A stretch of DNA of 64,000 bases. It comes from Ruminococcus sp. (GTDB lineage Bacteria; Bacillota; Clostridia; Oscillospirales; Ruminococcaceae). The position numbers and the translations under genes are program-made. How positions within the stretch are numbered: position 1 is the stretch's first letter; every line of letters starts with the position of its first letter. Below the pieces are notes generated by a model. That model was given only the letters and a program-made list of their open reading frames with translations. It had not been told where the DNA came from and did not search any database. Below are positions 13,477 to 39,723 of this stretch, piece by piece. The stretch is from contig JAJBTZ010000045.1 of the NCBI GenBank assembly GCA_020860605.1, positions 1 through 64,000 on the forward strand, given 5' to 3'.

Positions 13477-13489
13477 GTTTGCACAAATA

Positions 13490-13588
13490 AGCGGGATGCG
13501 AAAACCGAACCGCAGGGCTAAACCATTTCGTCCGCAGGACAACTCCCCGTTCCTGTGGCACTATAACGCTCGATTTCCTACTCTTTTG
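13490..13588 (-). promoter_or_regulatory. Tetrahydrofolate (THF) riboswitch upstream of folT
   Basis: Read on the minus strand, the conserved THF-aptamer blocks occur in order: GAGTAG, GCGTTA, an ACGGGG...CCTG-type internal region, GACGAA, CTGCGGTTC and GCATCCCGCT. Their order and spacing match the known folT-associated THF class, which binds reduced folates. No promoter is evident between the pfkA stop at 13608 and the aptamer. Confidence 0.85.
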
Positions 13589-37816: not shown

Positions 37817-37908
37817 ACAATCTTTGGTTACAAAATGGTAACTAAAAATCAGAATTTTACCGACCAATTCTCCTGCTTCTCGGTGAAATTGACGATAAAA
37901 TTTTAGCC

Positions 37909-37932
37909 AAAAAGCCGCCTTTTCTGGCGGCT
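37909..37932 (-). terminator. Intrinsic terminator (minus strand) upstream of rpe
   Basis: AGCCGCC/GGCGGCT (37932-37926 with 37919-37913), 6-nt loop, then TTTTT on the minus strand. It would end a leftward RNA containing the 37943-38002 hairpin. Confidence 0.75.
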
Positions 37933-37942
37933 GCTATATAAA

Positions 37943-38002
37943 AACGGCATGGATGCTCGGTTCTCTCCCCTTTTTTGATTCCTTATGAACCGTCCTGCCG
38001 TT
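37943..38002. ncRNA. Candidate small hairpin RNA
   Basis: A rod-like inverted repeat: AACGGCA/TGCCGTT (37943-37949 with 37996-38002), GGA/TCC (37951-37953 with 37993-37995) and CGGTTC/GAACCG (37958-37963 with 37987-37992), total 16 bp, with a 23-nt loop. Leftward transcription would end at the 37909 terminator giving about 100 nt. Only a weak -10 (TAATAT-like near 38010) is seen. It has no ORF and matches no class I recognise. Confidence 0.4.
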
Positions 38003-38052
38003 AGTTTATATTATTCGGAAGTCGTCCTGATTGACACTGATTTTTCAGGCAC

Positions 38053-38846
38053 CAAAAAGGGAGCGGAGAAACCGCTCCCTCATTATATCAATTTATCACC
38101 ATATGCTGTAAATCTTTCGATTCTCTGTCGCTTGGTATCAGGTTTTAACTTAGCTTACTTCATCACGGTCTGGTCTTAAAATAAACCTTACGTATGAACT
38201 ATGTTATCGTCAAAGCTTGGTATCATTTCAGATACTATGTATCACTGATGCGACTACAGCTCAATTTAAAGTCTTTGTTGGACTCACCCTCTCACTGCTA
38301 GATTTTGATTTCGACCTTGTAAGACAGTTTCATGGTGCATCAAATCCTTTCGGGCTTTAAACCTTTTTGTTTGGATTTTCTTGATTTATGTTGGGCAAGA
38401 TATTCTGACTTTCGTCTTTCTTGCTTTCAGCTTGTATTTCTACTTGCTGCTTCTATCTTATTTCAGATAGGTTACAGAATCAATTTCGTGCTTTTTTTCT
38501 TCGATCTTGAGAAATTGGTTTCGTACCTAAGAGAACATCTCGTAATGTGTCAAGTCTAAGATAAGCTTACTTTTGAATCTGTGAGTCGAGAAGATTATGC
38601 ATAGATTGCTGGACTCACCTCTTTCAGTTTATTTTACTCGCAAGTTCCGTTTCTTGCTTTTGCTAGTACTTTCATAACAATCGCTCCTTTACATTTCGAT
38701 GCAGACGAATGTTATTTGGCCTATGTTTGGTTTGCTCCTGATAACTTCGAATATTTTATTGAAGTTATCTGAGGTTTTCTTACCTCTTCATCGGAACCCT
38801 CTCCCTTTTAGTTTTCAGTGACTTTTTTTATTTATCTCTCTGTTGT
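38053..38846 (-). ncRNA. Large structured noncoding RNA (~790 nt), class unassigned
   Basis: Leftward transcription unit with a consensus promoter (38853-38881), an intrinsic terminator (AGGGAGCGG/CCGCTCCCT, 38058-38066 with 38072-38080, then TTTTT) and no plausible gene. Many local stems are visible (plus coordinates): 38111-38114/38119-38122, 38231-38235/38239-38243, 38395-38400/38419-38424 enclosing 38407-38409/38414-38416, 38428-38431/38446-38449 enclosing 38434-38436/38441-38443, 38453-38458/38465-38470, 38481-38487/38511-38517, 38581-38587/38612-38618, 38740-38748/38761-38769 and 38771-38775/38782-38786. Three are closed by GAAA tetraloops in the RNA. Size and ornateness recall ROOL, GOLLD or OLE RNAs, but I cannot match the sequence to any of them. 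Confidence 0.75.
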
Positions 38847-38852
38847 GATTAT

Positions 38853-38881
38853 AGTATAACACACCTTTTTCGAAATGTCAA
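38853..38881 (-). promoter_or_regulatory. Consensus sigma-A promoter of the large ncRNA
   Basis: Minus strand TTGACA (38881-38876), 17-bp spacer, TATACT (38858-38853), with a second overlapping TATAAT. Confidence 0.85.
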
Positions 38882-38984
38882 TAGGTTTTTCAAACTTTTT
38901 TCAATTTTTTTTGTGGAATTTTTCAGAAAGACTCGTGTAAACTTTTTGAATATAAATTTGAGCGGTTTCTACACAAAAGTACCA

Positions 38985-39013
38985 TTGACAAACCGCAAGT
39001 TTTTCACTATAAT
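38985..39013 (+). promoter_or_regulatory. Consensus sigma-A promoter of the DUF1292 gene
   Basis: TTGACA (38985-38990), 17-bp spacer, TATAAT (39008-39013). A dyad GCGGTTT/AAACCGC (38962-38968 with 38990-38996) overlaps the -35 box and could be an operator. Confidence 0.85.
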
Positions 39014-39047
39014 AGTATCATACCTATTGTAAAAGGAGATTACCATT

Positions 39048-39404
39048 ATGGATGAAAACGAATATATGCCTGAAATCTATACCCTCGAGGATGAAGAGGG
39101 CAATGTCGGCGAATATGAGCTTATAGACATTTATGACGAAGGCGACAACACCTACTACGCCCTCGCTCCCTACTACGAGAACCCTGAGGATCTCGTCAAC
39201 GACAACGGTGAGTTCATCATCTTGAAAGTTGAGGACACTGGTGACGAAATCACTCTTGTTTCCATCGAGAGTGAAGAGGAATACGACAGACTCGGCCAGA
39301 TCTTCATCGACAGATTCGACAACTGGGATGACGAGTGCGAATGCGAGGATGATGACTGCGACTGCGATGACGAAGATTGCTGCTGCCATCATCATGAGGA
39401 ATAA
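39048..39404 (+). CDS. DUF1292 protein with acidic Cys/His metal-binding-like tail
   Basis: 118-residue very acidic protein. Residues about 5-90 fit DUF1292/YrzB (FELIDIY-like ELIDIYDEGDNTYYAL, then GEFIILKVEDTGDE and SEEEYDRLGQIF). Family function is unknown. The C-terminal 25 residues are Asp/Glu/Cys-rich and end in DCCCHHHEE, with eight cysteines and three histidines in all, which is unusual for the family and suggests metal binding. ATG at 39048 follows AAAGGAGATTACC. Its promoter lies back to back with the ncRNA promoter. Confidence 0.85.
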   Translation: MDENEYMPEIYTLEDEEGNVGEYELIDIYDEGDNTYYALAPYYENPEDLVNDNGEFIILKVEDTGDEITLVSIESEEEYDRLGQIFIDRFDNWDDECECEDDDCDCDDEDCCCHHHEE

Positions 39405-39454
39405 TATAGCTCATCTGAGTTATACTACTCTCTGAAATCAAAATCCATTCTGCC

Positions 39455-39483
39455 TTGCTCGATTAAGCATGGTTTTTATAATC
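39455..39483 (+). promoter_or_regulatory. Sigma-A promoter of the 6S-like RNA
   Basis: TTGCTC (39455-39460), 17-bp spacer, TATAAT (39478-39483). Confidence 0.8.
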
Positions 39484-39489
39484 CAACAC

Positions 39490-39676
39490 ATATAATTAGG
39501 GAATCTCGCTCCGGGCGCGGGGATGCAGACCTCCCGAAGTACGCACGGTTGCTGCCTCGGCAGCTTCCCTGTTCAAGTACAGAGGACGAAGGGAGCACGA
39601 AACGTTTGGGCAGGTACCCACCTGCTTCGTGCGGGTTTTATACGTCATGTGGCGACAAGGCGGAAGCCCCCAAAAA
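39490..39676 (+). ncRNA. ssrS: Probable 6S RNA (ssrS)
   Basis: A GC-rich, ORF-free RNA of about 187 nt between its own promoter and terminator, the size of 6S RNA, which mimics an open promoter and binds RNA polymerase. Ends can pair (AATT...GGG with CCC...AATT; then GCTCCG with CGGAAGC). Internal stems include GCTTCCCT/AGGGAGC (39559-39598 region), a GCTGC-CTCG-GCAGC hairpin and CACGAA/TTCGTG enclosing GCAGGT-ACCC-ACCTGC. The segment ACCCACCTGC...GCGGGTT resembles the conserved 6S CACCU...GGGUU block. The Firmicutes SRP RNA loop motif (GGAAGGAAGCAGC) is absent, which argues against SRP RNA. Confidence 0.65.
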
Positions 39677-39678
39677 TT

Positions 39679-39713
39679 AACGGCTGATACTCAAAAGGTG
39701 TCAGCCGTTTTGT
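39679..39713. terminator. Terminator of the 6S-like RNA
   Basis: AACGGCTGATAC/GTGTCAGCCGTT (39679-39690 with 39698-39709), then TTTTG; it can also serve the convergent regulator gene. Confidence 0.85.
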
Positions 39714-39723
39714 TATGCTTATT

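Follow-up and report, generated by a model that had tools for sequence, protein, structure and literature searches.

The minus strand of positions 38053-38881 in the 64,000-nucleotide stretch of Ruminococcus sp. DNA that we analysed (hereafter the window) is, as judged from its sequence, a self-standing transcription unit, and the RNA it would specify can be read as a chain of Shine-Dalgarno (SD) sites of three kinds, with micro-ORFs of 1-15 codons (counting the start codon). What we call an A unit consists of an extended SD, a start codon, 0-3 further codons and a stop; a B unit, of an SD and then a peptide of ~8-15 codons with conserved last residues before the stop; and a C site, of an extended SD without a start codon, very often lying a few nucleotides past the stop of a B unit. 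The view that the array RNA locus is transcribed and translated is well supported by sequence comparisons, and among bacterial RNAs the array RNA seems to represent a new type.

The transcription unit and its surroundings

An original prediction, made from the letters of this DNA, had placed here a separate RNA gene on the minus strand, lying back to back with a DUF1292 gene, and on both points it proved right: a strong promoter (11 of 12 consensus matches) and a terminator hairpin, with predicted pairing preserved in 11 of 11 relatives, enclose ~790 nt, and the divergent gene belongs to PF06949 (table 1). In the ten closest relatives of the window RNA, the alignment shows an unchanged -35 element and a -10 element reading TATAAT, and promoters with at least 10 of 12 matches are found at the corresponding place in other genera; transcription would start near 38846 (-). 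The terminator hairpin is absent from the listing of the scan that gave the promoter, its conservation notwithstanding. According to a Pfam scan of four neighbouring genes, a gene for ribulose-phosphate 3-epimerase lies on the left side of the RNA and the DUF1292 gene on its right. At the end of the DUF1292 protein, in the window as in most close relatives, stands an acidic tail rich in Cys and His that looks metal-binding; several other orthologues have a shorter tail or none. Elsewhere in the window, Rfam places a THF riboswitch at 13487-13587 (-) with 80.6 bits.

Table 1. Features of the array RNA locus and its neighbours in the window (an asterisk after a peptide marks the stop codon).
Feature	Position	Strand	Basis
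Sigma-A type promoter TTGACA-17-TATACT, TG-extended	38853..38881	(-)	11/12 consensus matches
Extended SD GGGAGAGGGTTCC and micro-ORF 1, ATG AAG AGG TAA (MKR*), at 38791..38780	38780..38806	(-)	Identical in 11/11 close sequences
SD AAAGGAG and micro-ORF 2, 13 codons, MKVLAKARNGTCE*, at 38675..38634	38634..38691	(-)	Frame kept in 11/11
Start-less (C-type) extended SD GAAAGAGGTGAGTCC at 38625..38611	38595..38625	(-)	Motif and alignment
GACUCAC, fully complementary to GUGAGUC at 38618..38612; might form an SD-masking hairpin	38581..38587	(-)	Invariant in 11/11
Block of ~50 nt, nearly invariant in close relatives	38506..38555	(-)	Alignment
Nested GAAA hairpins of the original prediction	38388..38449	(-)	Not conserved as such
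SD GAAAGGATTTGATGCACC and micro-ORF 5, MKLSYKVEIKI*, at 38333..38298	38298..38351	(-)	Start and frame in 11/11
Second start-less extended SD GAGAGGGTGAGTCC at 38293..38280	38261..38293	(-)	Core invariant in 11/11
Structured 3' domain closed by GCUGUAGUCGCAUCAG / CUGAU..GCGAC..ACAGC	38105..38261	(-)	Covariation
Intrinsic terminator hairpin GGGAGCGG/CCGCTCCC, then TTTTT	38079..38054	(-)	Read from sequence
DUF1292 gene (PF06949), divergent syntenic neighbour	39048..39404	(+)	Pfam and synteny
6S RNA (RF00013), beyond DUF1292	39444..39670	(+)	40.5 bits, below the Rfam gathering score of 46.4

Searching the whole window with 4227 Rfam models returned nothing in the RNA at gathering scores, and at E<=5 the region 37850-39720 gave no match to ROOL, GOLLD or OLE; the matches on or near the RNA at this threshold were weak and far below the cut-offs, the only meaningful one being that to 6S RNA. 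The same three families were without match in 50 related loci (10 searched at E<=0.5, 20 and another 20 at gathering score), and no match named raiA occurred among the Rfam matches, from a set of models that may or may not include raiA. The RNA had been proposed to belong either to a known class of large RNAs such as these or to a new one; no Rfam family covers it, and membership of ROOL, GOLLD or OLE is not supported. We also considered and rejected a mobile or phage element, as blastn found no match in phage or plasmid collections and the synteny with DUF1292 is chromosomal; a related pattern has one match in each of seven viral contigs, without an array in any of them.

Compared with dinucleotide shuffles, the RNA strand has the stronger fold (z -3.8; 0 of 20 shuffles reach so low a value). 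Covariation among homologues is scarce overall, only 8 of the 153 pairs predicted by RNAalifold from 11 close sequences having a compensatory change, but it is present in the 3' domain, where five helices chosen by us from that prediction were tested: both-sided changes occur in 4 of 29 pairs (0 of 500 shuffles as high) and 100% of the pairs can form, while further pair types, one of the five measures, are unexceptional (99 of 500 shuffles). The nested, GAAA-capped stems emphasized originally do exist in the window, but 5 of 11 close sequences lack their block and all the others have a different one, which makes the named stems particular to this genome; some close relatives have, as judged by eye, hairpins of other sequence at this place. 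An untranslated, ornate RNA of the ROOL/GOLLD/OLE kind would be compatible with the size of the RNA, with its own promoter and terminator, with the folding strength and with the covarying 3' domain, but it finds no Rfam match to such families, few covarying pairs and no conserved GAAA hairpins, and it is confronted with the strong SD and ORF signal described below, so that we hold this explanation to be most improbable.

Micro-ORFs and start-less sites within the genus

What relatives conserve in this RNA are SD sites, micro-ORFs and start-less SD sites, which goes against the original noncoding reading. In the 11 closest sequences, micro-ORF starts and frames are kept and stops shift in frame, and the shortest SD-led ORF listed in the window RNA is MKR*. 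The 13-codon ORF with a good ribosome site that had been noticed before is present, though it starts at 38675 and not at 38672; it belongs to the series of micro-ORFs kept by relatives, and the earlier statement that the span holds no credible gene does not stand. Its stop is TAA or TGA among the 11 close sequences, and its tail varies at every codon position (4, 6 and 3 sites at positions 1, 2 and 3), so the peptide itself is loosely held in the closest group of the window. The stop of micro-ORF 5, a unit type that recurs in other genera, is TAG in five of these sequences and TGA two codons further in six. Two candidate GUG-initiated frames are associated with the C sites: VSPAIYA* at 38618..38595 (-), within the region of the first site, and VSPTKTLN* at 38287..38261 (-), within that of the second. 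The complement GACUCAC, being invariant in 11 of 11 sequences, provides no covariation for its pairing with GUGAGUC. The ~50-nt block contains GAGATGTTCTCTTAG and is nearly constant in sequences that differ elsewhere. A hidden longer protein was rejected, since two plus-strand ORFs of the RNA span (75 and 64 aa) have no match to a Pfam family.

A DNA-query search of 60 genomes with the window RNA (E<=0.01) matched 37 of them, namely all 31 of the genus and six of the 29 outside it, the latter with short and weak matches; within the genus, the matches comprise the window's own, ten others of full length at 76-81% identity, and otherwise short pieces, some of the promoter only. A sequence-only model of the region from micro-ORF 2 to the C site (R1) matches 30 of the 31 genomes, including 27 of 27 of good quality. 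The DUF1292 gene stands on the opposite strand just upstream in 25 of the 27 genus loci with the RNA placed, the exceptions being one locus that begins at a contig end (G023) and one with no DUF1292 found (G020), and ribulose-phosphate epimerase lies near the RNA in 15 of the 27. The genus is represented by MAGs that carry the label Oscillospiraceae or Ruminococcus sp.

The array plan is easily read in distant relatives within the genus, where the RNA is ~400 nt long: promoter; SD-MKR*; SD-MKLARSWI*; GAAAGAGGTGAGTCC without AUG; SD-MNVNKHKIL*; SD-MNRCxTA*; terminator. One such RNA (L041, G014) has three tandem, near-identical modules of an MKR unit and an MKLARSWI unit and another (L046, G028) has two; these are duplications inside the RNA. 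MKLARSWI*, the sister-species counterpart of micro-ORF 2 of the window, is encoded in 16 copies from 13 species, 13 of them (ten species) selected with a pattern in which the first codons are set and the rest from three more species (G009, G016 and G018), and it has undergone only synonymous and stop changes. In the 13 copies these are Leu CTC/CTG/CTT, Arg AGA/AGG, Ser TCC/TCT/TCA/TCG, Ile ATT/ATC, and swaps of TGA and TAA. Micro-ORF 1 reads MKR*, or MKR plus four codons, in the 13 copies from ten sister species, with all three stop codons in use. A coding signal, which the original prediction had named as evidence against its noncoding reading, is thus seen in one B unit of sister species and is missing from the closest relatives of the window.

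Arrays in other genera and their statistics

Of 297 genomes of the family, 56 had R1 matches at E<=0.05. Beyond the genus, a single genome matched strongly (G302, 1.1e-8), with five matches ~100 nt apart, and weaker tandem matches occurred in two more genomes of the same genus as G302. Inspection of DUF1292 loci uncovered further arrays. One of them belongs to the Massilioclostridium coli type strain (L071), and among its micro-ORFs are MC*, MY*, MK* and an AUG-UAA with nothing in between. A second model (R2), describing a B unit and the following C site and derived in part from these loci, whose own matches are therefore built in, detected matches in 96 of the 297 genomes at E<=0.02, representing 50 of 126 genera, often several per locus and some of the single matches weak. 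In a phylum-wide sample, R2 matched 21 of 249 genomes, but besides the window's own only one match fell below 0.004 (G715, 1.7e-4, a single motif); the remaining ones look like chance. The pattern GGAGTGAGWCCRCC was found in only seven of 295 genomes of the order; three of the seven belong to the family and have two sites apiece, and outside the family it was no commoner than a reversed control.

Forty loci from 40 genomes were fetched on the basis of R2 matches, and in 36 of them DUF1292 lies head-to-head with the array (opposite strand, upstream); of the other four, three stop at a contig end and one (G338) shows no DUF1292. By eye, DUF1292 genes also occur without an array (L075, L078). A terminator-like hairpin follows within 2.6 kb in 35 of 40 regions (these 36 loci plus L071, L074, L076 and L079, the promoter being chosen by us as having at least 10 of 12 matches near DUF1292). 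Of 40 related loci, 24 contain a 6S RNA that reaches the gathering score (10/20 and 14/20), and in the 21 loci whose positions were compared this RNA lies 55-318 nt past the matched end of DUF1292; array RNA, DUF1292 and 6S RNA stand together in many genera. Arrays of other genera (L074, L113, L132, L222 and more) begin with a longer ORF of about 17-24 codons; its early residues are often acidic, a stretch resembling CGSF or SGSF is often present, and it represents a further peptide family.

For statistics we used 58 RNAs (57.1 kb), 25 from inside the genus, with ends set by hand, and 33 from outside, the latter being those of the 35 terminator-bearing regions that are shorter than 1.75 kb; the set includes close relatives, and the counts are therefore not independent. 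The motif GUGAGWCC has 162 sites in these RNAs, none antisense, and seven in 709.8 kb of the flanking strand, an enrichment that is in part by construction, because the out-of-genus loci were found with models containing the motif; TGAnWCC stands before the best start in only two of 184 long ORFs. The consensus around the motif, GAAAGG(A/G)GUGAGWCC, is a near-copy, almost end to end, of AGAAAGGAGGTGATCCAGCC, the complement of the 16S rRNA 3' tail (GGCTGGATCACCTCCTTTCT, read in M. coli). Against this tail, 109 distinct sites give a mean of -13.4 kcal/mol and shuffled ones -6.8. The SDs of ordinary long ORFs are no weaker (median -10.1 kcal/mol, with 73% reaching at least -8), and SD strength is thus not the unusual feature of the array. 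The number of SDs at -9 kcal/mol exceeds that in shuffled sequences only as 699 to 405, since purine-rich shuffles pair too.

Counting AUGs preceded by an SD duplex of -8 kcal/mol or better yields 443 in the 58 RNAs versus 107.6 per shuffle set. The ORFs so led number 133 versus 21.0 shuffled at up to four codons, 38 versus 19.2 at 5-7 codons, 208 versus 24.2 at 8-15 codons and 64 versus 43.2 above 15 codons, and they include 14 of one codon and 59 of two codons, as in bar-like minigenes. At 135 distinct GUGAGWCC sites, an AUG follows directly in 33 and not in 102; in the latter, a stop occurs within seven codons in the GUG frame of the motif at 80 sites, compared with 50 and 32 in the other frames. 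The sequence after start-less sites thus is also frame-aware, and mini-ORFs initiated at the GUG, which lies inside the SD, are possible there. Many strong SDs followed by a few codons or by no start at all suggest that ribosomes may be caught or paused. The same motif counts bear on the idea that GUGAGWCC arrays are a sponge that would titrate a protein or another RNA regulator. The repetition of one short motif in many copies fits this idea, as does the W position (U or A), which misfits perfect pairing with 16S rRNA, but the motif, taken with the GAAAGG(A/G) before it, agrees over almost its whole length with the complement of the 16S tail, it stands directly before the AUG of A units at 33 of 135 distinct sites, and the micro-ORFs would be left unexplained; on this analysis we regard a sponge as decidedly unlikely.

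Some structural regularities did not withstand counting. A complement near GUGAGWCC exists at only 14 of 162 sites (three with shuffled surroundings), and the GUGAGUC/GACUCAC masking hairpin was consequently rejected as a general rule, being lineage-specific at most. By eye, a hairpin seemed to stand precisely where the ribosome would enter behind C sites; it was likewise rejected, as the mean energy at 107 C sites is -10.6 compared with -10.5 in random windows of the same RNAs.

Peptide endings, spacing and possible roles of the array

We examined 177 distinct SD-led ORFs that are 7-15 codons long, and for 113 of them an SD motif follows within 42 nt of the stop. The terminal codon of these 113 specifies Ile in 43% of cases versus 6% in shuffled sequences (ATT 25, ATC 23, ATA 1; followed by TGA 25, TAA 17, TAG 7), and the next SD motif starts 6-7 nt after the stop in 51 of the 113. 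Endings that we named from the ORF list recur across genera, such as ...R/K-L-N/K-I* and ...(F/Y)HDLN(I/F/L)*, the latter mostly with 12 nt to the next SD; others are ...EYEF* (0 nt to the next SD, in two genera) and ...KTF-KKF* (7 nt). Given its usual footprint, a ribosome at the stop of a B unit would cover the next SD. The layout of B units is that of leader-peptide control, repeated, without a gene to control: short ORFs with a conserved start, stop and SD are there, but no constant main ORF lies downstream in the transcript, as 35 of 40 regions have the terminator-like hairpin and the downstream gene varies.

Leader and arrest peptides resemble B units in being short ORFs with conserved residues before the stop, where pausing acts just downstream. 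Erm leaders are arrest-type leader peptides, and TnaC is reportedly a leader or arrest peptide too. The extended SDs of Staphylococcus aureus upstream ORFs (uORFs) are described, in passages of PMC13009471, as pairing with the 3' region of 16S rRNA with one mRNA base unpaired. TnaC, Erm leaders and S. aureus uORFs precede a regulated gene, whereas the array consists of chained units with no main ORF and with start-less SDs. These precedents bear on the possibility of a translation-controlled attenuator, in which arrest in a B unit would alter folding and thereby control termination, processing or stability of the array RNA or of the next gene. The spacing from B stop to C site would suit it, and so would the GUGAGUC/GACUCAC complement in the group of the window, but the next gene is not constant (the epimerase in 15 of 27 genus loci, other genes differing by eye) and a terminator-like hairpin usually follows the array; we consider an attenuator quite unlikely, and we rejected a cis-regulator of the next gene because that gene varies.

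The peptides themselves might be the products that matter. The locus would then be a micropeptide operon whose peptides of 2-15 residues act in trans as signals or regulators, as the leader peptide peTrpL reportedly does. Peptide families recurring across genera, the exclusively synonymous changes in MKLARSWI* and the tandem repetition of modules (three copies in G014, two in G028) are in keeping with this, but many units encode only M*, MA*, MY* or MK*, C sites encode nothing with a normal start, and conservation concerns the residues before the stop, often with a fixed distance to the next SD, which points to an action on the ribosome. We thus find such an operon unlikely.

The interpretation that we consider to have somewhat less than an even chance, based on sequence comparisons, is that the array RNA is a separate RNA gene that engages ribosomes and serves in trans as a trap, a buffer or a sensor of the state of translation. 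Ribosomes that load on B units would, in the manner of leader arrest peptides, pause or arrest at the stop codon on account of the nascent peptide, and in that position they would sit over the C site that closely follows. At A and C sites, 30S subunits or ribosomes would be kept in complexes that are futile or lack a start, and the whole RNA would act in trans. Sequence comparison establishes the anatomy of the array, its conservation, the coding signal in one B unit of sister species and the agreement of the SDs with the 16S tail, whereas expression, ribosome binding, stalling and a trapping role are what we infer from the sequence. For a pure start-less trap, the early stops in the GUG frame after C sites would not be needed; a hairpin at the ribosome entry, which would fit trapping, is absent by count; and part of the RNA structure, namely the covariation of the 3' domain, would be left unexplained by an engagement of ribosomes.

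Bacteria have RNA decoys for RNA polymerase and for regulators; we know of no RNA decoy for the ribosome. The 6S RNA is a stand-alone regulatory RNA, a decoy that binds RNA polymerase, and it resembles the array RNA in standing alone and is its neighbour; its target is RNA polymerase, the likeness of the array RNA as a putative ribosome decoy is our proposal, and the two were compared in sequence through Rfam alone. CsrB/RsmZ, which titrate CsrA, likewise carry one short motif in many copies per RNA, but the array motif, unlike theirs, agrees with the complement of the 16S tail and goes together with start and stop codons. Lambda bar is a minigene, and minigenes similarly engage ribosomes with two-codon ORFs that have an SD; they are single elements in an operon leader, whereas the array sits in an RNA of its own in many genera. 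A two-codon mini-ORF acting in cis is described for axe-txe in passages of PMC8708949. ROOL, GOLLD and OLE are large RNAs of similar length; according to passages of PMC12286853, ROOL can equal 16S rRNA in abundance in one strain, and ROOL and GOLLD are linked to phages or prophages, unlike the array RNA, which has neither an Rfam match nor a blastn match in phages or plasmids. Among the results listed by searches of open-licence PubMed Central papers, we found precedents for parts only and none for the whole array, no description of such an RNA and no paper treating DUF1292 and 6S RNA together; DUF1292 is not named in the main text of a survey of ncRNAs in 50 genomes (PMC11109978).

More specifically, and more tentatively, the array RNA may be a dedicated ribosome-trapping or translation-sensing RNA, a translational counterpart of the neighbouring 6S RNA, in which arrest-peptide minigenes, start-stop ORFs and start-less super-SDs are chained together in many genera of one Clostridia family. 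If this is true, an RNA with about ten ribosome sites in some species and almost nothing translated would represent a new form of translation control or sensing, the arrays would provide a natural library of candidate arrest peptides, some of only 8-11 residues, and a seemingly noncoding RNA would be conserved through codons too few for gene finders.
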